Part shown: piece by piece, positions 2,203 to 36,465 of the stretch
How the letters are laid out: every line of letters begins with the position of its first letter
How positions within the stretch are numbered: position 1 is the first letter of the stretch
From: an uncultured Pirellulaceae bacterium
Lineage (GTDB): Bacteria; Planctomycetota; Planctomycetia; Pirellulales; Pirellulaceae
Assembly (NCBI GenBank): GCA_937928215.1
Contig: CALFWL010000070.1
Location: 1 to 38,258, forward strand
Length of the DNA stretch: 38,258 nt
Direction of reading: 5' to 3'
Position numbers and translations under genes: made by a program
The notes under the pieces: generated by a model
The model's database searches: none
Told to the model about the DNA's origin: nothing
The model's input: only the letters and a program-made list of their open reading frames with translations

Positions 2203-2793
2203 ATGACTACTCTAAACTCGCCGCCGGACGAATTCCGGCAAATGGACGGCACGCAACTATTTCAATCGGTTGCGGGGCTGCTGCTGATGGCAAATGAGTT
2301 CATTGGCGTTTTCTGGGCACTGCTGGTCAAGCGGCCTGGCACTGCCGGGACGCGGGCTTATTGGCGTGAAGCGGCTGGTGGCTTCTTCTTGCTTCTCGCG
2401 CTTTCGCAAAACCATTGGTTCCCGGATCAGTATGCCTTTCGGGTCTCAATTGCCCTGCTATCGATCAACTTCTGGTGGCACATCGTGGCAACGACGCTAA
2501 AGAAGGATCACGTGCATACTCAGTGCATCGGTGCATCTCGGTTCCTTGGAAGTGGCTACACGCCTCTCTATCTTGAAATCTTCACCGGGATTTTCGTTGC
2601 TGTCGGCTTCATCTTCGCTGGCATGGAACCCTACGGTCTTTTCATTCTTGCGTCAGCAGTCTGCTGCAGTCTCAAGGAAGGACTGATCGAGGAGCGTGAT
2701 CGTCAGCGCTCGGTAAAGATGGCGGATGCGATGGCTGAGCAAGCCTACATGATGCACAACTTCGAGCAATGGAAGCGAGGACAACATGGGTAA
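2203..2793 (+). CDS. Multi-pass membrane protein of the element
   Basis: A 196-aa protein of no recognised family. Four or five hydrophobic segments are visible (about residues 20-43, 58-72, 82-100, 121-141 and 144-158), followed by a charged C-terminal tail. It begins 5 nt after the ATPase gene and overlaps the next start by 8 nt, so it is in the same operon. Given that the ATPase lacks a membrane anchor, a membrane partner role is possible but unproven. Confidence 0.7.
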   Translation: MTTLNSPPDEFRQMDGTQLFQSVAGLLLMANEFIGVFWALLVKRPGTAGTRAYWREAAGGFFLLLALSQNHWFPDQYAFRVSIALLSINFWWHIVATTLKKDHVHTQCIGASRFLGSGYTPLYLEIFTGIFVAVGFIFAGMEPYGLFILASAVCCSLKEGLIEERDRQRSVKMADAMAEQAYMMHNFEQWKRGQHG

Positions 2794-3001
2794 GTCTTAC
2801 GACGACCTGAAGAACATGTTCGACAAAGGTCGCTATGAAATGGCTCAAGGACTGAGGGCCACTCAGGAAGCTGGATACCTGGCCCCCGAGTATCAGAGTC
2901 ACAGCATGGACGAGAAACAAACGTCTTACCTAGAACAGGTGCAAGACGGAATGGAAATTTCCCAACCCCAGCCCGAACGCCAACAGGAGGTGCAGCCATG
3001 A
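2786..3001 (+). CDS. Small hydrophilic protein, unknown
   Basis: A 71-aa charged protein rich in Gln and Glu, ending in a Pro/Gln tail; no domain recognised. Its ATG lies inside the 3' end of the membrane-protein gene (8-nt overlap), and its TGA overlaps the next ATG in an ATGA arrangement at 2998-3001. Real coding is supported mainly by this chain of tight overlaps. Confidence 0.6.
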   Translation: MGKSYDDLKNMFDKGRYEMAQGLRATQEAGYLAPEYQSHSMDEKQTSYLEQVQDGMEISQPQPERQQEVQP

Positions 3002-3171
3002 ACGAAAACATTTTGATGTTGAAGATCATGATGGGGTTTTCCGTTCCCTACATGCTGTACGCCGCTTATATCGCAGTTCGTGTTTTTCGCCAGAAGAACG
3101 CTGTGGAGCGACAGCTTCAAGCGTGGCGGAAACGGCGTGAGCAATTACTCGCAGAAAGGGGGCAAGCATGA
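2998..3171 (+). CDS. Small single-pass membrane protein (57 aa), unknown
   Basis: This short gene begins at the ATGA overlap with the gene before it and ends at TGA 3169-3171, which overlaps the next ATG at 3168. An AGGAGG lies at 2986-2991, well placed for the start. The product has one hydrophobic segment at about residues 5-28 and a basic, helical C-terminal tail with several Arg and Gln. The overlap pattern and ribosome binding site make it a credible gene. No family is recognised. Confidence 0.65.
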   Translation: MNENILMLKIMMGFSVPYMLYAAYIAVRVFRQKNAVERQLQAWRKRREQLLAERGQA

Positions 3172-3413
3172 TTCTCTTGTTTCGACTCCTTTGGCGATGG
3201 TCGTCGCTAGTCTGCTTTATAAGCATTCCGCCGTTGCTGTTCTGGGCGCACGTGCAAGAAGCAATGCCCGTTGGCTACGGAACGCTGTTGCTGTTCGGGT
3301 TCTGGTGTTTCATACCGTTTGGAACGGTCTGTGAACTCGCGCAGAAACGAGACCTAGCACGTCATCGAATTTTCAATATTCAGCTCGAACTAAGGAGGCT
3401 TAATCATGACTGA
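3168..3413 (+). CDS. Small two-pass membrane protein (81 aa), unknown
   Basis: Two hydrophobic segments (about residues 2-27 and 36-56) are followed by a charged, probably cytoplasmic tail. It overlaps the genes on both sides (4 nt and 8 nt). Similar size and position in the operon suggest a membrane assembly with its neighbours; no homology is recognised. Confidence 0.6.
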   Translation: MILLFRLLWRWSSLVCFISIPPLLFWAHVQEAMPVGYGTLLLFGFWCFIPFGTVCELAQKRDLARHRIFNIQLELRRLNHD

Positions 3414-3690
3414 ACGAGAGTTTGCACATGAATCACGGAAGGCCAAGTGGCATCCCAATCGGATTCGAGCTTGGATCTACTGTAAAAATCGGTATGGAAC
3501 GTCGTTTCCTGATGACTCTTGGTCACTCGACCAAGTTCTTGAAGTTTCCAACCAAACGTTGGAAATCTACCAGAACGCCCATCGAAGCTCCACGAAAAGT
3601 CAGATCTTGCACGGAGTCACCGAGGGTCTCACCGAAGCTGCGGTGCACATTGGGTTTCCTGCGATCAAGTCGTTTCTTGGTCGTCGTTAG
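3406..3690 (+). CDS. Hypothetical protein (94 aa)
   Basis: A soluble, basic protein with no recognised domain. An AGGAGG at 3391-3396 precedes the ATG by 9 nt, the best ribosome binding site in the operon. It overlaps the preceding gene by 8 nt and is followed within 20 nt by a leader-peptide frame. Function unknown. Confidence 0.6.
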   Translation: MTEREFAHESRKAKWHPNRIRAWIYCKNRYGTSFPDDSWSLDQVLEVSNQTLEIYQNAHRSSTKSQILHGVTEGLTEAAVHIGFPAIKSFLGRR

Positions 3691-3710
3691 TTTTTTTCTA
3701 GGAGATACTT

Positions 3711-3773
3711 ATGTTCCTTCGAATTCTGATTGCTTTTATCGTCGCATTGGTCAGTCAATCATCTCGCCGATGA
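3711..3773 (+). CDS. 20-aa hydrophobic leader peptide coupled to the HTH gene
   Basis: The ATG at 3711 is preceded by AGGAG (3700-3704) with 6-nt spacing, a strong start signal. The frame encodes MFLRILIAFIVALVSQSSRR and stops at TGA 3771-3773, overlapping the ATG at 3770 of the HTH gene in an ATGATGA arrangement. The HTH gene has no ribosome binding site of its own just upstream, so this peptide could deliver ribosomes to it. It could instead be the remnant of a small membrane protein. The coding signal is clear for so short a frame, but expression is inferred. Confidence 0.5.
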   Translation: MFLRILIAFIVALVSQSSRR

Positions 3774-4000
3774 TGACGGTCAAAGAAGCCGCAACTCGGC
3801 TTAGTGTTTCCTGTCGTTTTATCTACCGCTTATGCTCAAAAGGATTGCTCGAACATTTCAAACTCGGCAATCGAATCCGCATCACGCAAGAGGCGATCGA
3901 ACGATATTTGGAGACAAAAATAAAAAGGACGCGACAACAAACTGTTGCAACGTCCCCCACGAAATCACCAACGCTGTCCGTACTAAAGAGGCGTCGGTGA
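3770..4000 (+). CDS. Excisionase-family / MerR-type HTH DNA-binding protein
   Basis: A 76-aa protein starting MMTVKEAATRLSVSCRFIYR and continuing with KLGNRIRITQEAIERYL. This is the HTH_17/excisionase pattern: a helix-turn-helix, then a basic wing that reads the target, then a helix. A basic tail follows. The frame is open upstream to 3422, but homology starts at 3770. Position next to a convergent integrase supports a recombination-directionality factor. It may also repress or activate the element's genes. Confidence 0.75.
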   Translation: MMTVKEAATRLSVSCRFIYRLCSKGLLEHFKLGNRIRITQEAIERYLETKIKRTRQQTVATSPTKSPTLSVLKRRR

Positions 4001-4005
4001 TCGAG

Positions 4006-4032
4006 AGGCCTCGGCAATTGCCGAGGCCTTTT
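4006..4032. terminator. Bidirectional intrinsic terminator between xis-like and int genes
   Basis: AGGCCTCGGCAA (4006-4017) and TTGCCGAGGCCT (4018-4029) form a perfect 12-bp inverted repeat followed by TTTT on the plus strand. It lies 6 nt after the HTH stop codon and 12 nt before the integrase stop codon, so it can end transcription from both convergent genes. The minus-strand T-run is weaker. Confidence 0.75.
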
Positions 4033-4040
4033 GTATTAAT

Positions 4041-5033
4041 TCAAGATACCTTGCGAAGCTGGCTCAGCAAATAGTCGTTCTTTTCGCCAATGTGCTGATA
4101 GATCTTCGCCAGCATGGATGCATCTTTATGGCCCAGCAGCTTCGCGACCGTGATATGGTCGAGCCCGGCTTCCAGCCAGCGAGTGGCAGTCAAATGACGG
4201 ACCGAGTAGGCGCAGTAGTGCTTGCCCGTCTTCACTCCAATACGCCGCATTCGGCAATTGATTGCGTATGCGGTCCAAGGATTACCGAGGCTGTTGGTAA
4301 AGGCATATCCTGATCGACCTGAAATCAGACGTTTTGCCTGCTGATTCAAGTAAATCACTCGCCTCGTCTTTTTCCCTTTTGACTCAACGACTTCAAAAAC
4401 CACCTTGTCGTTGTGGACGTGCCGATGTTCGAGCATCCGGGCTTCTTGGGGCCTACACCCGGTTTCATACAAAAACGAAAGGTACGATCGAAAGGGTTCG
4501 GTTGCGTAGTTCAGCATTTGCCTGAACTCGGCTGGGGAAGGATATTCTTCCCGCCGAACCGCACTGGGCTTTTCCAGATACTTGATCGGCGACTTTTCAA
4601 TGTAGCCCTGCTTTTCGGCCCAATTGAAAGCTCGCTGGACGGCTCGCATTGCTCCACGAATCGTCGAGTTGTTCCAAGCGGGGCCGTGTGACGCAATCCA
4701 CTCGTTGACGTGCAGTGGTTTCAGGCGATCAACGGTGAGGTTCTGGTTTTGTAGCGAGTCCAGGAAGCCCTGCAAGAAATCGCTGTACCAGGAGAACGTT
4801 GTGGCCGCCCGATTATCTCGGCACCAGACCAGATACTTGTCCATGATCTCCGCGACGGTGATGGACTGCTTAAAAGGCTCAGAATCATTCGGTTGCTCAA
4901 CCTCTGCCATCAACAGGTGAAATTGTTTCTTCGCCGTTTCCTTGTTGTCACCGAGGTTGTGTCGCCGACCGTTAATCGTGACAAACCAAGCACTTCGATC
5001 TTTCCTGAACCACATTTTTGAGGGCCGCGCCAT
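4041..5033 (-). CDS. Tyrosine recombinase / integrase
   Basis: A 330-aa phage-type integrase. It has an N-terminal arm-binding-like region, a SAM-like core-binding domain (about residues 55-150) and a C-terminal catalytic domain. Catalytic candidates are R194 (in TGCRPQEAR), K219 (SKGKK), R279 in YSVRHLTATR where Tyr276 takes the place of the usual His, H302 (LLGHKD) and the nucleophile Y312 (IYQH). It is convergent with the excisionase-like gene, and its start lies about 100 nt from the tRNA fragment, the normal place for an integrase beside its attachment site. Confidence 0.93.
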   Translation of the reverse strand: MARPSKMWFRKDRSAWFVTINGRRHNLGDNKETAKKQFHLLMAEVEQPNDSEPFKQSITVAEIMDKYLVWCRDNRAATTFSWYSDFLQGFLDSLQNQNLTVDRLKPLHVNEWIASHGPAWNNSTIRGAMRAVQRAFNWAEKQGYIEKSPIKYLEKPSAVRREEYPSPAEFRQMLNYATEPFRSYLSFLYETGCRPQEARMLEHRHVHNDKVVFEVVESKGKKTRRVIYLNQQAKRLISGRSGYAFTNSLGNPWTAYAINCRMRRIGVKTGKHYCAYSVRHLTATRWLEAGLDHITVAKLLGHKDASMLAKIYQHIGEKNDYLLSQLRKVS

Positions 5034-5136
5034 AATTTTTCTCCAAAACAGTTTCGTACCGGGTTTCGTACCACGGCTTCCGAAATGTTACGGAGACGCT
5101 TGAAAAAGCGTAGTTTTTTCACCGGCATTCACCTGC

Positions 5137-5683
<547 letters not shown>

Positions 5684-6937
5684 ATGATGAAACATTTTTT
5701 CACGCTGACCGTTTTCTTGATCGCGTCCAGCAGTCTCCCTTGCTCCGCACAGGATACCGGCTTTCCATTTGTCTTGCCAACCGAAAAACCCAATCGTCCC
5801 ATGAGTGCGGCGATGGAGCGAAACTACTCCGCGTATCTGGCGCCTCGCCCAGAAAACAACGAACTGTACTCGCAGTTCAAGTACACTCGGTTGAAAGGAT
5901 TTGACTACAACCATCACGACGGAACGATTTCTCGCCGCGATCCTTCCAAAGTGATTTTCGCCAATGGCAAGTACTATGTTTGGTACACCCACCGTGAAAC
6001 TCCGACTCCCCCCAAAGGCGCTGCTGCTTCCACCGACACCGTTCCATCTAGCGATTGGGATCTAAGCGATATCTGGTACGCGACCAGCGAGGATGGATTC
6101 ACATGGGAAGAGCAGGGCGTCGCAGTGCCTCGGCCTCCCAAACCGAACGTAGGATGGCGTTCCGTTTCGACCACCGACATCCTTGTTTGGAAAGGCAAGT
6201 ATTATCTTTACTACCAAGGATTCATGGAAGCGAGCGGCAAGCGGGGCGACGATTGCCCCGTCGCGGTATCGTATGCAGACTCGCCCGACGGGCCGTGGAC
6301 GCCGCACGAAAAAGTTGTCATTCCAAACGGGGGCGAAGGCGAGTGGGATCAGTACTCGATTCACGACCCGTATCCTTTGGTCTACCAAGGGAAGATTTTT
6401 CTGTACTACAAATCCGATTTCGATGGCGATCCAAGATTGGTGCGAATGCAGGGCTTGGCGATAGCGGACAACCCACTGGGGCCATTCGAAAAGAGTCCGT
6501 TGAATCCTGTGATTAACTCGGGTCACGAAACAACCTTGTTCCCGTTCAAAACAGGGATCGCCGCATTGGTCATCCGAGATGGCAACGAACACTCGACCGT
6601 TCAATACGCACAAGACGGAGTCAACTTCGAAATCGCCTCGATCACGGGTCTGATGCCCAACGCCGGCGGGCCTTTCGTTCCTGACGCATTTACCGACACG
6701 AAAGATGGTCGAGGAATCACTTGGGGAATCTCGCACTTCACCAACGCGACCGGAAATTGGAAAAAGAATCACTCCATCCTGGCTCGTTTTGATTGCGACC
6801 TGAGCCTTGATCTTCACGACCCGCAAATGAAACGCACGGGATACTACTTCAGACCGGATATCTACTTCAGTCAGCACCTGAGCAAAGATCAGCGTCAAAG
6901 AATTACCAACGATACCAGAATGCTTCGCGCCAAATAG
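5684..6937 (+). CDS. GH117 glycoside hydrolase, alpha-1,3-(3,6-anhydro)-L-galactosidase type
   Basis: The predicted secreted enzyme would remove 3,6-anhydro-L-galactose from the non-reducing end of neoagaro-oligosaccharides. It has a signal peptide (about residues 1-22, ending CSAQ) and the GH117 N-terminal SxAxxR motif in SAAMERNY (41-48). A five-bladed propeller follows with FKYTRLKGFDY, TISRRDPSK (D86), SIHDPYP (D228) and GHETTLFP (E282). The three acids fit the catalytic set known for the family. Start chosen at 5684 (or 5687) because the signal peptide begins there; the frame is open from 5627. First gene of the cluster. Substrate among agar, porphyran and related galactans is inferred. 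Confidence 0.85.
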   Translation: MMKHFFTLTVFLIASSSLPCSAQDTGFPFVLPTEKPNRPMSAAMERNYSAYLAPRPENNELYSQFKYTRLKGFDYNHHDGTISRRDPSKVIFANGKYYVWYTHRETPTPPKGAAASTDTVPSSDWDLSDIWYATSEDGFTWEEQGVAVPRPPKPNVGWRSVSTTDILVWKGKYYLYYQGFMEASGKRGDDCPVAVSYADSPDGPWTPHEKVVIPNGGEGEWDQYSIHDPYPLVYQGKIFLYYKSDFDGDPRLVRMQGLAIADNPLGPFEKSPLNPVINSGHETTLFPFKTGIAALVIRDGNEHSTVQYAQDGVNFEIASITGLMPNAGGPFVPDAFTDTKDGRGITWGISHFTNATGNWKKNHSILARFDCDLSLDLHDPQMKRTGYYFRPDIYFSQHLSKDQRQRITNDTRMLRAK

Positions 6938-30062: not shown

Positions 30063-30824
30063 ATGCAACTTGTCTCATGGAATGTCAATGGAATCCGAGC
30101 CGCAACGGACAAGGGCCTTCGCGAATTTGTCAGCAACGAAACCCCCGATGTTCTTTGCCTGCAGGAAACGAAAGCTCAACCCGATCAGGTGAACACGGCT
30201 TGGCTTGAAGAGCTAGGCTACCGCGGGGTCTGGAATTCGGCCAAGAAAAAAGGCTACAGCGGCACGGCAATATTCTCTCGAGTGGCTCCAAAGAAAACTT
30301 CGATCGGCATGAGCATCGCAGAGCACGACGACGAAGGACGAATCGTCACCGCCGAGTTTGATGACTTTCAACTGGTGACGGTCTACACGCCGAACTCCCA
30401 GCGAGAACTGGCGCGGCTTCCTTACCGTCAACAATGGGACACTGATTTTCTGAAGTGGCTGAAAAAACTGCGTCGCAAGAAACCCGTTATCTTTTGTGGT
30501 GACTTGAATGTTGCTCATCAGGAAATCGATCTTGCCAACCCAAAAACGAATACTCGCAATGCCGGGTTCACTCAGGAAGAGCGTGACGGCCTGACGAGGA
30601 TGCTTGACGCAGGCTTCAAGGATTCGTTTCGCGAATTCGAATCCGGACCGGAACACTATTCGTGGTGGACCTATCGCATGAACTGCCGAGCCCGAAACAT
30701 CGGTTGGCGGTTAGACTATTTCTGCGTGGACGAAAAAATCTGGAGCCACGTGCACGACGCGAAGATTCGACCTGAGATCAAGGGCTCGGACCACTGCCCC
30801 GTAGAGCTGACGCTCAAAGTTTGA
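30063..30824 (+). CDS. xth: Exodeoxyribonuclease III (AP endonuclease)
   Basis: A 253-aa EEP-superfamily nuclease that cuts at abasic sites and trims 3' ends. Motifs are MQLVSWNVNGIRAA at the N-terminus, LCLQETKA (E35, metal ligand), VYTPNSQ, FCGDLNVAH (Asp/Asn pair), NIGWRLDYF and KGSDHCPVEL with the catalytic Asp-His. Normal length for the family. It begins a repair block with sbcD and sbcC on the same strand. Confidence 0.94.
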   Translation: MQLVSWNVNGIRAATDKGLREFVSNETPDVLCLQETKAQPDQVNTAWLEELGYRGVWNSAKKKGYSGTAIFSRVAPKKTSIGMSIAEHDDEGRIVTAEFDDFQLVTVYTPNSQRELARLPYRQQWDTDFLKWLKKLRRKKPVIFCGDLNVAHQEIDLANPKTNTRNAGFTQEERDGLTRMLDAGFKDSFREFESGPEHYSWWTYRMNCRARNIGWRLDYFCVDEKIWSHVHDAKIRPEIKGSDHCPVELTLKV

Positions 30825-30921
30825 AATGATTTGTGGGCGAGCATCTTGGCATCGGCTGGTTTCTCAATCGGGTTTGATCGGTGGCGTTCACTGAGAAGCC
30901 TCACTTTTGCGCGATTATTTC

Positions 30922-31033
30922 AACCGCGAAAGAAACGAAACATGCGAAAACCGTGCTCTTGAAAATAGATTAAAACACCGTGTCAACCGATTCTGACTTT
31001 CGTTCATTTCGCGTCTTTCGCGGTCGCTGATCC
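30922..31033. repeat. 112-bp direct repeat, left copy
   Basis: Identical to 31459-31570 except for 5 positions, at an offset of exactly 537 nt. Its ends are inverted: ACCGCGAAAGA near the left end, and on the opposite strand ACCGCGAAAGA near the right end, each followed by spaced CGAAA blocks. Both copies end in GATCC. It can fold as one long imperfect hairpin and looks MITE-like. Confidence 0.9.
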
Positions 31034-31066
31034 TGTCTTCAACCTCCCGGCAGCAAAGGCCCAACG

Positions 31067-31450
31067 ATGGATGTCCTGTACAAAGACGAGAGCTACCAAA
31101 TCATGGGAGCCTGCTTCGAAGTTTATAAAGAGAAAGGTTGTGGGTTCGTCGAACCGGTTTATCAGGAATGCCTTGAAATCGAACTGGGCCTGCAACAAAT
31201 TCCCTTTACCGCGCAGCTTGATTTGGAACTGGGATACAAAGGGCGACAACTGAAACAAGTTTACAAACCTGACTTTGTTTGCTTCGATAAGATCATCTTG
31301 GAAATTAAAGCGGTATCCAAGTTGACGGACGACCACCGTGCACAGATTCACAATTACGTAAAAGCGACGGGTTACAAACTGGGACTGTTGGTCAACTTCG
31401 GTCACTTTCCCAAAGTCGAGTGGGAGCGAATTGTTCGTGAACAGAAGTAA
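31067..31450 (+). CDS. GxxExxY family protein (PDDEXK_3-like)
   Basis: A 127-aa protein of normal family length. MGACFEVYKEKGCGFVEPVY contains the eponymous GFVEPVY. YKPDFVCFDKIILEIKA carries PDDEXK-like D and ExK residues, followed by DDHRAQIHNYVKATGYKLGLLVNFG. The fold predicts nuclease-like activity, but no biochemical function is established for the family. It starts 33 nt after the left 112-bp repeat and ends 8 nt before the right one. Confidence 0.88.
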   Translation: MDVLYKDESYQIMGACFEVYKEKGCGFVEPVYQECLEIELGLQQIPFTAQLDLELGYKGRQLKQVYKPDFVCFDKIILEIKAVSKLTDDHRAQIHNYVKATGYKLGLLVNFGHFPKVEWERIVREQK

Positions 31451-31458
31451 TTCTCCCT

Positions 31459-31570
31459 AACCGCAAAAGAAACGAAACATGCGAAAACTCTGCTCTTGAA
31501 AATAGATTAAAACACCGTGTCAACCGATTCTGACTTTCGTTCATTTCGCGTCTTTCGCGGTTGTTGATCC
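31459..31570. repeat. 112-bp direct repeat, right copy
   Basis: Same length as the left copy and 107/112 identical by direct comparison. Differences are one base in the left arm, two near position 30 and two just inside the right end. It ends three bases before the sbcD start codon, so it supplies the whole upstream context of sbcD, including any ribosome binding or promoter signals. Confidence 0.9.
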
Positions 31571-31573
31571 ACC

Positions 31574-32998
31574 ATGCCCAAACAATTGCAACTCGACATC
31601 GGCCCGGATGAGGAACCGGCTCGCGGAGAAACCGTTCAAAACGGGACGGCGGATGATGGAGAAAACCGCTACCGAGTTCTTCACACAGCAGATTGGCATC
31701 TGGGTAAAACACTCGATCGTCTATCGCGGGAGGATGAACACCAACGGTTTCTGGATTGGTTATTGGAATCGATCAAGGAACTCAAAGTCGACTGCCTGCT
31801 GGTCGCCGGAGATGTTTTCGACTCGCCCAGACCGCCGCAATCTGCCGAGAAAATGTATTTTTCGTTTCTGGCTCGACTGCACAAAGAAACCAACTGCGTT
31901 GCGGTCATCACATCCGGCAACCACGATTCACCCCGACATCTGGACGCACCTCGGCAGGCACTAAAAGCGTTGGACGTGCATGTCGTCGGCGAACTACCCG
32001 CCGATATAAATGATTGCGTCGTTACGTTACCGGACACAGAACAGCCGCAACTGCTGATCGCGGCGATGCCATTTTTGCGTGACCGCGACATCCGCACGGG
32101 GCAGTTGGGTGAAAGCGCCGAAGAAATCAGCAAGTCACTGCAAGCGGGAATCAAGCGCAGTTACCAAGAGGCTTTGGATGTCTGCAAGGCCATTCGAAAA
32201 AAGCAACCTCAGGCCGCGCTGATGGCAGCCGGGCATCTGACGATCAGCGGTTGTTCGACTCAAGAGAAGAAGTTGCCTGATGGCGAGCTACCGATTCACA
32301 TCGGTGGCTTGGGCGAGGTCGCAGCAGAGACCTTTCCGCCCGAGTTCAGCTATGTGGCTTTGGGACACATTCATCGCAGCCAGTCGTTCGACAAGAACGC
32401 GAAGGGATTGCCACACGTGGCTTACAGCGGCTCTCCGATCCCACTCAGTTTCAGCGAAGCCGGACATCAAAAAACCGTGCGGTTACTGGACTTCGCGGAC
32501 GGCAACTTCGTGGCTCAATCCAAATTGGCAATTCCGACGCGTCGTGAGTTGGTTCAGCTGAAGGTAGCTCGCGACGAACTGACGGAAACACTCGCATCAT
32601 TTGCTCCCCCCACGGCCGAGCTGGAAACGTGGGTCGAACTCGTAATCGAAACCACACGTGAGCACGAACCGCTGCACGAACTGGTGGAAAGCCTGACCGC
32701 CGATTCCAACTACCGGGTCGTCAAGACGGTCGCTCAATGGGTTGGCGAAAACGCTCGCTTGAGCAACAACGATCTCGGGTTGCCCGCTGACGAACTTGAA
32801 AACGTGCTTGCTGATCCGCGAGAAGTATTCAGTCTGCGGCTGGAACAAGAGATCGGCCTTGATGAAGACGAGCGACTGCAACTTCAGACGGCGTTCGACG
32901 AACTGATCGACCTGCAAGCTCAACGGGACCCGGACGACGCATCCCACTTCAAGGTTGCCGCTCCACACATGCGCACGGGCAAGGCGGCCACCTCATGA
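31574..32998 (+). CDS. sbcD: Exonuclease SbcD (Mre11-type)
   Basis: A 474-aa metallophosphoesterase, the nuclease subunit of SbcCD, which processes hairpins and double-strand ends. Motifs are VLHTADWHLGKTLD, LLVAGDVFDSPRPP, VITSGNHDSPRHLDAPR, MAAGHLTISG and YVALGHIHRSQSF. About 33 N-terminal residues before VLHTADWH are extra and acidic; family members usually start close to this motif, so translation might begin elsewhere, though no better ATG is seen. Overlaps sbcC by ATGA. Confidence 0.94.
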   Translation: MPKQLQLDIGPDEEPARGETVQNGTADDGENRYRVLHTADWHLGKTLDRLSREDEHQRFLDWLLESIKELKVDCLLVAGDVFDSPRPPQSAEKMYFSFLARLHKETNCVAVITSGNHDSPRHLDAPRQALKALDVHVVGELPADINDCVVTLPDTEQPQLLIAAMPFLRDRDIRTGQLGESAEEISKSLQAGIKRSYQEALDVCKAIRKKQPQAALMAAGHLTISGCSTQEKKLPDGELPIHIGGLGEVAAETFPPEFSYVALGHIHRSQSFDKNAKGLPHVAYSGSPIPLSFSEAGHQKTVRLLDFADGNFVAQSKLAIPTRRELVQLKVARDELTETLASFAPPTAELETWVELVIETTREHEPLHELVESLTADSNYRVVKTVAQWVGENARLSNNDLGLPADELENVLADPREVFSLRLEQEIGLDEDERLQLQTAFDELIDLQAQRDPDDASHFKVAAPHMRTGKAATS

Positions 32999-35900
32999 AG
33001 ATCCTAAAAATCGAATTCGAAAACTTGAACTCGCTGCGTGGCGAACAGACAATTGATCTCGAATCGGGTGACCTTGCCGAAGCAGGGATCTTTGCGATTA
33101 CGGGTCCGACGGGAGCGGGCAAGTCAACGATTCTGGACGCGATAACGCTGGCCTTGTACGGCAAGGCTGCTCGTTACGGAGCGTCCCCCAGCCCGGAAAA
33201 CATGATGAGCCGCCACACTGGTCACTGCCGATCAGAAATTGTTTTTGAAACTTCGGAGGGTCGGTTTCGCGCGGCATGGCAGCTGAATCGCGCGAGAAAA
33301 AAACCAGACGGAAAAGTTCAACAGGCTAGGCACCAAGTCTTCGACCACGAGGACACACCATTGACGCAGAAAATCAAGGAAACGTCCGGAAAAATTGAAG
33401 AGCTGATCGGGCTGGACTTCGATCGATTTCTGCGGTCGGCTCTTTTGGCTCAAGGCGAGTTTGCTAAATTTCTGAAGTCGGATGTCAATGAACGCTCACG
33501 GCTTCTGGAGAGTCTGACCGGGACCAGCATCTATTCTGATTTGTCTCAATTGGTTTACGAACAATACAAAGACCGAGAAAATCAACTCAAGCAGCGAGAG
33601 GCGATACTCGATGCCGTCGTGCTGCTTACCGTCGATGAATTGAAGGAGAAACAGACCCAAAGCAAAGCCCTAGAAGTTGAACTTGAATCGCTGAAGAAGA
33701 AACAAAAGGCGGCCAACGAGCGAGTCGAACTAGGCAAGCAATCGCGTGAGGCGACCGCGTCGAAGCAACAACTGACCACAACATTGAAGTCGCTTGAGGA
33801 ACAGGGCAAAGCATTGGCGGCGGATGAACAACGTTTGAAATGGCACCAGAAAGCAGTTACCTTCAAACCTGACTTGGGAAAAATCGACCAGCAACGGACG
33901 CAATGTTCGGATGCCGATAAACAAGCGCGGCTTGCGGTTGAGCAAACCGAAACGTCTGGCCAAACGCTAAAACTTCAACTGCATCACGCCGACACGTGGC
34001 TGGCCGATCGCAACCAACAGCTCCAGAAAGAGTTAGATGCCGAATCCGGACGGCAGACGACGTTGACAGGTCAACAAACGTTGGCGACAAAATGGCTAAC
34101 GGCAAACGCAGTCGACAAAACGCTGGCTGAGGCGATCCCTAGTATTCGAACCTGCTTAGCCAAATTATCCTCGAGCCGACGAAGCGGCCGCGAAGCGACG
34201 GCACGTTTGGAAAGACTCGCCGGGACACTGGAAAAGACGGAGGGATCGATCCAACAGTCGAAGAAGGATCTTGATTCACTTACGACGGTGATTGACAAAC
34301 AGCAGGAAGCGTTGAACAAACAGCTAGAATTGCTGTCGCAGGAACTGGACGGTGCGGATTCGGACAGGTTACACGAACAACGAGATCGGTTAACGGAAAA
34401 GATCGCGGCCCTGACGGCAATGGCCGGACAAGAAGTCGAGGCCAAGGAACTAAAACAAGCGATCAACACGAAACAAACATCCGCAAAGGAGAAGAAAGGC
34501 GACACTGAGCAACAGGAACGCGAACTCAAGAAAGCGACGGAAGCGGCAAAGGATCAAGAAGAAACCTGTGCTGCACTCGAAATCGCCGTCGAACAGGCTC
34601 GGCTGGTCGCAGATTTGGCGGAGCATCGGGCCAACCTCAAGGACGGCGAAGAATGCCCGCTGTGTGGTTCGCTGGAACATCCGGCGGTCGATGGGGAACC
34701 GGCATCACCTTTGGCAACCTTGCAACAGCAGCTTGGCAAAGCTCGTAAGTCGTTGACGAAACTGGCGGCGACACAGCAGGCTCAAGCAGAGCGACTGACA
34801 CTGGCCAAGGCATCGCTCCAAACCAAGCTGCAAGAAATCAAGAACGACCAAGAGCGTCTTTCGAAACTCAATCTGAACCTCAGCCAGCAAGCGACCAAGC
34901 TGGAGCTCTCGGCCGAGGAAGCAAAAGATTTGACCGCGACGAAGACGGCGGCCGAGCTTCAGTTCGATCAATTCAAACGGCGAATGTCGCAGGTTGACGT
35001 TCTACGTGTATCGGTACAAAAGTGTGAAAAAACTGTTCAGCAAAGCTTGGGCCAGCAAGATTTACTCGCTCAGACTCTGAAATCAGCCGAGGCCAACCTG
35101 GCTGACCTGAAAAGTCAACAAACCGAGGCGACGCAGCAACTGGAATCCGCCAACATCGATGTTCAACACCAAACGCAGCAACTGAAAAAGCTGCTTGAGC
35201 CGTTCAAGTTAACGACTCCCGACCTAGAAGCGATCGAGCAGTTTCAACAATCACTTGATCGACGTAGCCAAGCGTTTCAAGCCCGAACCAATGAATTGAG
35301 CCAACTGGAATCGCAATTGGTCAAAAGCCAACAAGTGGCCAAAGATCTCCTGCGTGAACAGCAAGAAACCGCACGCGAGTTGTCGCGGGTGGAAACGTGG
35401 ACGCGAGAAGAGCCCCTGCGTTCGGCTAGTTTGCCTGCGGCCGCCAACTTGAGAGATGCGCTCGCGTGGTCAACCGTGACAGAACTGGCAGAAGAATTGG
35501 GCTCACTTCGCACAGCATGGCAGCAAGCGGTCGAACGAGAACAGGTTCGGGTAAACGCGGCGACCGAGAGTCGGAAGGCATTTACTACCGCGTCTGCGGC
35601 ATTTCTAGCAAGTGCAGTGCAGGGCGGTTTCGAAAGTGTTGCTCAACTCCAATCGCAATTGCTCTCTGACGACGCCGCTGAGACAATCGCCAACCGCTTG
35701 GAGCAACACAAAGAACAACTCAACAAAACGCGTGGGCAACTGGAACAGCTAGAGGAAACTCTGACGTCGCTCAAGGAAAAATCGGCTCCCGACGAACAAG
35801 AACTCGCAAAGCAGGTCGCCGAATTAGAGCAACTGGAAAACGACGCGAACCAAAAACAACAGCAACGTACCACCATCGAAAACGCTCTCGATGCCGATCT

Positions 35901-36465
35901 TCAACAAAGGAAAAAACAAGAACAGGCGCACAAGGAATTGCAAAACCAGCGTCAGCAGTTGGTAACGTGGCAAAGACTCAACGAGATCATCGGCAGTGCA
36001 GATGGCAAAAAATTTCGCACGTTCGCTCAGGGAATTTCGTTGGACCTAGTGATCCGGCACGCGAACCAACACTTGACCGAACTGAGCACGCGATATCGTT
36101 TGCAACGGCGTGCGGCGGATTCTCTGGGGCTAGAAATTTGCGACTTGCATCAGGCAAACGCGTTGCGTCCGATGGAAAGCTTGTCCGGTGGCGAGAGCTT
36201 TGTGGTTTCGCTCGCGTTGGCGTTGGGCTTGTCCGATCTGGCCGGGCAATCGGTTCGAATTGACTCGTTGTTCATCGACGAAGGTTTCGGAACGCTCGAC
36301 CCAGAGACACTCGACATGGCCGTCGCGGCATTGGAACGCTTGCAGGCTCGTAACAAAACGATTGGCGTGATTTCGCATGTTGAACTACTCAAGGAACGCA
36401 TCACGACTCAGATTCAGGTACAACCCAATGCAGGCGGAACCAGCGAATTGAAAATCGTGGCGTGA
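32995..36465 (+). CDS. sbcC: Exonuclease subunit SbcC (Rad50-type SMC ATPase)
   Basis: A 1156-aa ATPase partner of SbcD. Walker A GPTGAGKST is at residues 37-45. Two very long Gln/Glu/Lys-rich coiled coils surround a zinc hook CPLC (C554, C557). The C-terminal lobe holds the ABC signature LSGGESFVVSLALALGLSDLA and Walker B LFIDEGFGTLD, then a D-loop and GVISHVELLKERI. Its ATG overlaps the sbcD TGA, so the two are coupled. Length is normal for SbcC. Confidence 0.96.
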   Translation: MKILKIEFENLNSLRGEQTIDLESGDLAEAGIFAITGPTGAGKSTILDAITLALYGKAARYGASPSPENMMSRHTGHCRSEIVFETSEGRFRAAWQLNRARKKPDGKVQQARHQVFDHEDTPLTQKIKETSGKIEELIGLDFDRFLRSALLAQGEFAKFLKSDVNERSRLLESLTGTSIYSDLSQLVYEQYKDRENQLKQREAILDAVVLLTVDELKEKQTQSKALEVELESLKKKQKAANERVELGKQSREATASKQQLTTTLKSLEEQGKALAADEQRLKWHQKAVTFKPDLGKIDQQRTQCSDADKQARLAVEQTETSGQTLKLQLHHADTWLADRNQQLQKELDAESGRQTTLTGQQTLATKWLTANAVDKTLAEAIPSIRTCLAKLSSSRRSGREATARLERLAGTLEKTEGSIQQSKKDLDSLTTVIDKQQEALNKQLELLSQELDGADSDRLHEQRDRLTEKIAALTAMAGQEVEAKELKQAINTKQTSAKEKKGDTEQQERELKKATEAAKDQEETCAALEIAVEQARLVADLAEHRANLKDGEECPLCGSLEHPAVDGEPASPLATLQQQLGKARKSLTKLAATQQAQAERLTLAKASLQTKLQEIKNDQERLSKLNLNLSQQATKLELSAEEAKDLTATKTAAELQFDQFKRRMSQVDVLRVSVQKCEKTVQQSLGQQDLLAQTLKSAEANLADLKSQQTEATQQLESANIDVQHQTQQLKKLLEPFKLTTPDLEAIEQFQQSLDRRSQAFQARTNELSQLESQLVKSQQVAKDLLREQQETARELSRVETWTREEPLRSASLPAAANLRDALAWSTVTELAEELGSLRTAWQQAVEREQVRVNAATESRKAFTTASAAFLASAVQGGFESVAQLQSQLLSDDAAETIANRLEQHKEQLNKTRGQLEQLEETLTSLKEKSAPDEQELAKQVAELEQLENDANQKQQQRTTIENALDADLQQRKKQEQAHKELQNQRQQLVTWQRLNEIIGSADGKKFRTFAQGISLDLVIRHANQHLTELSTRYRLQRRAADSLGLEICDLHQANALRPMESLSGGESFVVSLALALGLSDLAGQSVRIDSLFIDEGFGTLDPETLDMAVAALERLQARNKTIGVISHVELLKERITTQIQVQPNAGGTSELKIVA

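Follow-up and report, generated by a model that had tools for sequence, protein, structure and literature searches.

The GxxExxY unit and its neighbours

The DNA under study (from now on the window, i.e., the whole stretch of 38,258 bp that was analysed) belongs to contig C70 of the source genome, G000, whose assembly comprises 4.15 Mb in 247 contigs. Two palindromic repeats of 112 bp, located at 30922–31033 and 31459–31570 on the forward strand and delimited by repeat comparison, genome search and iteron scan, bracket one gene of the GxxExxY family, which was named by NCBI merely from a motif. An earlier note on this DNA had described these repeats as nearly identical; the repeat comparison confirmed its five mismatches and placed them at repeat positions 7, 31, 32, 104 and 106, i.e., the left and right repeats are 96% identical direct copies. 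The gene (31067–31450, forward strand, 127 aa) is the only open reading frame with a family match between the repeats. Its product matches TIGR04256 (E 9e-41; 138.9 bits for a curated cut-off of 35), which makes it a member of the GxxExxY family, and also PF13366 (PDDEXK_3; E 6e-41; 140 bits for a curated cut-off of 22), so that the single gene for a PDDEXK-like protein reported in that note is indeed present.

Upstream of the unit, a frame at 30063–30824 matches Exo_endo_phos and fits xth. Downstream, a frame at 31574–32998 matches Metallophos and fits sbcD, and another one at 32995–36465 matches AAA_23 and SbcC_Walker_B and fits sbcC. A profile search of the open reading frames beside the unit gave no transposase match, in agreement with the earlier note, and no Rfam match was obtained in the interval 30800–31700.

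In the left repeat, inverted arms at 30923–30949 and 30998–31024 are 78% complementary over 27 nt. The arms of both repeats are made of three iterated units, CGCGAAAGA-AACGAAACA-TGCGAAA, and a relaxed scan for such triplets located (i) the outer, left arm of the left repeat at 30925–30949 (forward strand; CGCGAAA-AACGAAA-TGCGAAA); (ii) its inner, right arm at 30998–31022 (reverse strand; CGCGAAA-CGCGAAA-AACGAAA); (iii) the left arm of the right repeat at 31462–31486 (forward strand; three units); and (iv) the outer, right arm of the right repeat at 31535–31559 (reverse strand; three units). Over the entire window, the scan returned these four arms and one further match at 2519, which is taken as chance. 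The inverted ends with CGAAA blocks of the earlier note are therefore real as inverted arms, and a description as three iterated units fits them better than one as simple inverted ends.

The encoded protein

The AlphaFold2 model of the 127-aa protein (pLDDT 95.5; pTM 0.88) has its best matches among solved folds in SSO0001 (4ic1; E 2e-4), which we take to be a Cas4 protein, LHK-Exo (3syy) and lambda exonuclease (3slp). All 49 aligned close relatives share residues E29, D69, E79, K81 and Q93 without exception. The predicted fold, together with these conserved catalytic residues, places the protein in the PD-(D/E)XK nuclease superfamily, and catalysis has probably been kept. Residues 20 and 21, to which we return below, lie in the model at the end of helix 1 (residues 6–23), eight residues ahead of E29. 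Against the PADLOC defence library, the best match was PDC-M36A (E 0.0028; 14.5 bits), too weak to count the protein among anti-phage systems.

Copies of the unit in the source genome

A comparison of the 112-bp repeat with the whole of G000 gave 13 matches (E ≤ 0.001). Eleven of them are partial copies, distributed over contigs C49, C59, C64 and C93, where no GxxExxY gene was found by protein search. The recurrence of the repeat across this genome is not chance. The same type of search found four GxxExxY genes in G000, on contigs C70, C96, C237 and C209. Inspected by eye, each of them lies between copies of a repeat particular to that gene: CGCGAAA for C70, CACGAAT for C96 (close to the contig start, and hence with a short left flank), CACGCGAAGG/CGCTAAG for C237, and CGCGGAG/CGCAGAG for C209. 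On C49 (positions 2419–5786), tandem units of approximately 310 bp can be seen by eye to mix palindromes of the CGCGAAA type and of the CTCACGCAAAGG type.

Inverted arms around GxxExxY genes

Eighty relatives were taken from a genome collection; by their record titles, they belong to Planctomycetota, Verrucomicrobiota, Acidobacteriota, Kiritimatiellota, Lentisphaerota, Calditrichota, Ignavibacteria, Nitrospinia and others. The flanks of 350 bp gave an inverted match score of at least 30 in 72 of these 80 relatives, and direct repeats above the 99% control level in 23 of them, so that direct duplication, as seen in the window, is the minority form. More genes, taken from 60 related genomes, were then added to this set, and 138 of the resulting 170 loci were used (partial genes, short flanks and duplicates were dropped). 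At the same threshold, 111 of the 138 genes lie between inverted arms, compared with 16 of 1280 equally spaced control windows at the same loci. Control loci of panC and aroA never reached the threshold (0 of 43, out of 50, once the two of the source genome and five that were cut or short had been excluded). No inverted arms at threshold were found for 27 of the 138 genes, nor for 33 of the 87 in a fresh set described below. The association of gene and arms is supported across phyla. The repeat is thus neither a local peculiarity nor without association with GxxExxY genes, as the counts above and a presence/absence difference between panC and lgt (see below) make clear.

Records from a plasmid collection reached the arm threshold in two of eight cases (Bacteroides and Bernardetia). 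By eye, one can discern an inverted match of 11 nt, with one unit, in the Treponema record, an arm on the upstream side only in the Sphingomonas record, and a gene-free palindrome downstream in the Gemmatirosa record. In Sphingomonas (L490, upstream arm only) the gene is located inside a run of fab genes, and in Bacteroides (L488, both arms present) directly 3' of radA. Among viral contigs, five stretches matched the arm pattern and none of them encodes a GxxExxY relative; the search of phages gave no match.

These data bear on two suggestions of the earlier note, namely excision of the gene through recombination of the direct repeats, and a functional link between the site and sbcD. Copies that are 96% identical could certainly recombine. 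Nevertheless, direct duplication is the minority form, the three other GxxExxY genes of G000 are on other contigs, and the closest unit known from a congener is not beside sbcD. Furthermore, a long SbcD match occurs in only two of 28 genomes of the genus, G000 itself and G003 (35% identity). The link to SbcCD is thus left without support, and excision at an sbcD-linked site is barely credible as an account of the unit. The SbcD-like/SbcC-like pair (31574–36465) may itself have been acquired, or often lost. Since the junction between xth and sbcD is not kept in the genus, that between panC and lgt was used instead as empty-site comparison.

Anatomy of the arms

The common unit of the arms is C-R-C-N-R-A-X, where the A at position 6 was imposed by the unit search and X is A, T or G and nearly constant per element. 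A typical arm holds three such copies at a spacing of 8–11 bp; 9 bp is the most frequent value, the G class having 8 and 9 bp and the T class 9 and 10 bp. When the motif alone was searched for, in a set of 141 elements that admitted shorter flanks than the 138 genes, facing triplets appeared on both sides of 58 elements and in none of 1045 control windows; 50 elements had triplets on one side only and 33 on neither side. In all 58 testable elements, X is identical in both arms (re-paired arms: mean 22.4, maximum 36). The unit spacing, compared free of alignment, agrees between arms in 52 of 58 (re-paired: mean 20.1, maximum 32); the figure derived from the alignment, 59 of 63, is in part a product of the alignment itself.

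The earlier note had stressed that each repeat can fold into a hairpin. Single-strand folding of the 112-bp repeat turned out to be only weakly better than that of shuffled sequences (z -2.70 and -0.90), and mirrored units are just slightly more alike than non-mirrored ones; on these two grounds, the hairpin was rejected as the main feature. Given how little mirrored units stand out in similarity, the arms are better accounted for by six similar binding sites than by base pairing.

Cognacy of protein and arm class

The class letter X follows the phylogeny of the protein. On a tree of 109 of the 113 classified elements, built from few columns and with many unresolved forks, X changes nine times, compared with 43.6 times after shuffling, and none of 200 shuffles was as low; the G class forms one side of a supported branch. 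When X was shuffled within genomes (26 elements in eight genomes), at least 12 changes were needed in all 1000 trials, and genome composition does not therefore explain the match between class and phylogeny. Arm classes are, in short, cognate to the proteins that they surround.

Two residues covary with X. N occupies position 21 in all 22 proteins of the T class, and in none of the 59 of the A class or the 28 of the G class; H occupies position 20 in all 28 proteins of the G class, in one of 59 of the A class and in one of 22 of the T class. In the protein of the window these residues are Y20 and K21, encoded at 31124–31129 (forward strand). A rule based on both residues, fixed before the first hold-out test, was right for 11 of 13 elements, the two misses being proteins with H20 and N21 and with T arms. 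A refined rule in which N21 is considered first was drawn up after that test (on the training set, it was right for 108 of 109). It was applied to a fresh set of other paralogues from 50 whole genomes, for which 100 loci were sampled out of at least 119 matches listed; 130 loci led to 88 new elements (40 were already known or duplicate), of which 87 were examined and 46 classified. Here the refined rule gave 36 correct answers out of 46 (shuffled: mean 22.3, maximum 32 in 5000), and the original one 37 out of 46, so that the refinement brought no gain. Among the ten misses are members of a GKGH subfamily, which combines T arms with H-R or H-G at these residues, a G-arm element that is clean yet has N21, and several elements whose arms are ill defined. 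Supported branches offer only three independent contrasts between A and T, and all three agree (p 0.25). The position of residues 20–21 looks involved in iteron recognition, as far as covariation can tell; in any case, these residues are no universal code.

Arms in genomes with and without the gene

At least three arms were found in 33 of 35 gene-bearing genomes and in three of 25 genomes without the gene (Fisher p 4e-11, a nominal value, as the genomes are related). With the A/T-arm pattern alone, the figures are 28 of 35 and one of 25. Five of the seven remaining gene-bearing genomes reach at least three arms with the G-arm pattern (G001, 23; G006, 3; G013, 97; G046, 23; and G048, 30), and the classified genes of G001, G013 and G046 do fall in the G clade; in the other two, G009 and G057, the G-arm pattern is not found and the overall number of arms is below three. 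Backwards patterns served as controls. For the A/T pattern they returned at most four matches per genome and strand, and for the G pattern 18 and 19 in G050, 12 and 4 in G053 and 6 in G031; given such high controls, part of the G-type counts in these three genomes reflects composition. Arms with no detected GxxExxY gene occur in G012 (56), G030 (24) and G028 (3); in G012 and G030 the gene may have been lost or may fall in an assembly gap, or the arms may have another partner. The presence of arms throughout a genome thus depends on the gene.

Seven genomes with complete listings hold 138 arms, among which there are 16 facing pairs within 1 kb, 15 with gaps of 22–140 bp and one with a gap of 428 bp, in which a GxxExxY gene is located; two other pairs are back to back and six point in the same direction. 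Out of 40 sampled arms, 14 have a clear partner within 250 bp. Many arms are solitary, and some arm matches resemble coding sequence. Palindromes of the CACGAAA, CGCAGAG or CACGGAT type recur between genes of the environmental genomes studied, and we know of no cause for them.

The gene itself is patchily distributed: within the genus it is present in 14 of 28 congeners, several paralogues of different class may share a genome, and some copies contain stops or match the profile only in part. These features must be weighed against a reading that makes the protein a domesticated host factor, one that binds to the arms in regulation, DNA maintenance or defence, the repeats having spread long ago by other means. 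Cognate classes and residue covariation would also arise from a DNA-binding regulator, and in the Bacteroides, Bernardetia and Sphingomonas records the gene is tightly placed among housekeeping genes. Nevertheless, a host factor does not sit well with the patchy presence in congeners, the paralogues of different class, the damaged copies, the weak match to the defence library or the lineage-specific insertion described in the next section. We regard this reading as quite unlikely.

Signs of movement

Most of the genomes compared are metagenome-assembled genomes. In 24 genomes of the genus, panC and lgt are adjacent (both found in the fetched stretch; 26 genomes have panC). The spacer between them measures 12–245 bp in 23 congeners and 869 bp in G000, and only in G000 does it hold a GxxExxY gene with palindromes; none of the 23 congeners without the gene at this site has an iteron triplet there. 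Judged by comparison with these congeners, the paralogous unit of G000 between panC and lgt is an insertion, with one clean presence/absence junction. The proposal of the earlier note, i.e., an unrecognised mobile-like unit composed of a small nuclease-like protein and a palindromic repeat, finds support both in this insertion and in the association across phyla. A similar comparison between aroA and cfa, intended for a gene-free palindrome, is only suggestive: among 24 loci examined, the pair lies within the fetched stretch only in G000 (spacer of 659 bp; one relaxed arm) and G020 (278 bp; none), and the two align too poorly to fix the ends. No target-site duplication was found in spacers that are too diverged to fix the ends of the insertion, and no product of excision was found either.

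The unit of the window is also present in another genome, G006, at another site (contig C412, as we take this locus to be), with a protein that is 83% identical. The comparison covers the right side, as the fetched stretch ends too soon on the left; there, the DNA beyond the last repeat is unrelated and similarity stops at the repeat end. In G000 as well as in G006, both flanking repeats carry the loop sequence typical of the respective genome, which indicates that repeats are copied or homogenised locally.

A third case is the unit on C209 (within the stretch 2666–6010), which splits an hsdM gene: the matches to HsdM_N and to the first part of N6_Mtase (profile positions 51–136) are found on one side of it, and that to the end of N6_Mtase (254–311) on the other. 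A gene for a Y1 (IS200-like) transposase adjoins this unit, at about 600 bp from the GxxExxY gene. One might then regard the GxxExxY gene as passive cargo in a miniature inverted-repeat transposable element (MITE) moved by an unrelated transposase, all the more so because inverted terminal arms and gene-free copies resemble MITEs. Yet Y1-like frames, searched with two Y1 transposases (from loci L217, on C209, and L308), occur in only one of 170 unit loci, so that the neighbour on C209 is not general, and no transposase match lies beside the unit of the window. Furthermore, arm class agrees with the GxxExxY tree, even among paralogues of one genome, and arms go with the gene across genomes. Passive cargo is therefore very improbable.

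Apart from this, the congener spacers at loci L309, L332 and L308 contain other hairpin repeats (CAGCTCTCCGAGCTGATAGCGGC; GGTAGCCGGACTCGCCAGA...), and an IS200-like transposase frame at L308 resembles that of the C209 locus.

Interpretation

In our opinion (with a probability of roughly 0.7), the unit is a one-gene selfish element, probably mobile and devoid of a transposase, whose PD-(D/E)XK protein would recognise and likely cut the iteron arms, host repair then copying the palindromes. According to this proposal, (i) the GxxExxY protein would recognise inverted arms made of three C-R-C-N-R-A-X iterons, with residues around 20–21, at the end of helix 1, helping to set base X; (ii) it would, most likely, nick or cut DNA at or near the arms; (iii) host repair or recombination might then copy the palindrome, sometimes together with the gene, to a new or a resident site; and (iv) the gene-free arm-loop-arm palindromes scattered in the genome would be non-autonomous copies. 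The protein would thus act in trans on its repeats as RAYT/TnpA-REP proteins do on REP repeats, with an unrelated enzyme. DNA binding, cutting and movement, as well as who moves whom and how, are what we infer from the patterns described above.

The main rival assigns movement to the gene alone: palindromes would be resident, and GxxExxY would be a homing-type parasite that cuts gene-free palindromes and is copied in between their arms. Such homing would account for the position of the gene between the arms, in place of the loop, and for the flanking palindromes of G000 and G006 with their genome-typical loop, as if the gene had entered a local palindrome or been homogenised with it. On the other hand, arms are rare where the gene is lacking (at least three in only 3 of 25 genomes), which is not what independent host sequences would look like, and no iteron triplet awaits the gene between panC and lgt in the 23 congeners that lack it there. 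Homing is, on the whole, unlikely, and the selfish element that spreads its palindromes remains our preferred reading.

By linking GxxExxY genes to the palindromes of environmental genomes, the data provide this family with a probable DNA target, with a candidate position for recognition and with a testable function; they also suggest a route for palindromes to spread without a transposase.

Comparison with known systems

With its fold neighbours SSO0001, LHK-Exo and lambda exonuclease, the GxxExxY protein has in common the fold, the D-ExK residues and QxxxY-like residues; it differs from them in being a minimal protein of 127 aa. We know of no member of these families that is tied to a cognate dispersed palindrome.

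Genes of two unrelated families have the same layout as GxxExxY units. Firstly, inverted arms surround the S23p/IVS (PF05635) gene in 20 of 21 loci, compared with two of 105 windows (21 of 30 loci, the rest being cut by contig ends, and counted irrespective of location in rRNA), and their arrays have, by eye, a unit period of about 7 bp. In the intervening sequence (IVS) of the Coxiella 23S rRNA, tandem heptamers are located upstream of an open reading frame whose product, in the portion of the paper available to us, is a four-helix-bundle pentamer with no nuclease fold (PMC4990558). The S23p protein is unrelated to GxxExxY and the motif is another one; the unit of the window, located between protein genes and encoding a PF13366 protein, is not a 23S rRNA intervening sequence. 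Secondly, DUF559 (PF04480) loci reach the same inverted score in 12 of 24 cases (24 of 30 loci, the rest being cut by contig ends; no control windows), namely in 11 of 14 with more than 100 bits and in one of ten weaker ones. Their palindromes are of the type CCCTCTCCC...GGGAGAGGG / GGGTGAGGG (L265–L274 and L288), and one of the 12 loci, L268, aligns over other sequence. DUF559 differs from GxxExxY in its protein family and in a repeat without triple iterons.

A broader claim can be put forward tentatively, as somewhat more doubtful than probable: GxxExxY units might constitute a new class of transposase-free selfish elements in many phyla, in which a minimal PD-(D/E)XK nuclease would read iteron palindromes via residues 20–21 and spread them by cut-and-repair, and S23p/IVS and DUF559 might have converged on the same lifestyle. 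If this were true, the intervening sequences of 23S rRNA would exemplify a general type of element. Should the parallels with S23p and DUF559 be borne out, a single framework would embrace several orphan gene families as well as rRNA intervening sequences.

As for the literature, open-access articles (the preprint server bioRxiv being outside this scope) contain, in the text accessible to us, no report of a pairing between GxxExxY genes and palindromes; those dealing with GxxExxY do not, in the same accessible text, have repeats as their subject. Six arm strings had no match in the open-access literature, and nothing relevant to a pairing of DUF559 with palindromes was found in it.

The closest known relatives in layout are REPtrons and TIRtrons. 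A REPtron consists of REP palindromes and a RAYT (TnpA-REP), i.e., a Y1 HUH transposase (PMC8266576; PMC3733652). As far as the available parts of these sources go, it resembles the GxxExxY unit in three respects: (i) a small single gene between palindromes; (ii) dispersed gene-free copies; and (iii) co-evolution of protein and repeat. The second of these, dispersed non-autonomous copies tied to the gene, is borne out by the 33 of 35 versus three of 25 genomes given above. The two systems differ in their enzyme, an HUH transposase in one and a PD-(D/E)XK nuclease in the other (the gene of the unit belongs to PF13366, and Y1-like frames are confined to one of 170 loci), and in their repeat, which is a short GTAG-tagged REP hairpin in REPtrons and three iterated 7-mers (C-R-C-N-R-A-X), with no such tagged hairpin, in GxxExxY arms. 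TIRtrons, in turn, have a RAYT-like gene flanked by inverted repeats, and some of these repeats make up families (PMC3733652). They have a gene between inverted repeats in common with the GxxExxY unit; they differ in their tyrosine transposase, and C-R-C-N-R-A-X iterons are not among the features described in the accessible part of that source. In general terms, the kind of system, a protein with cognate dispersed palindromes, is already known, and it is the enzyme class that is new to this role in the portion of the literature examined.
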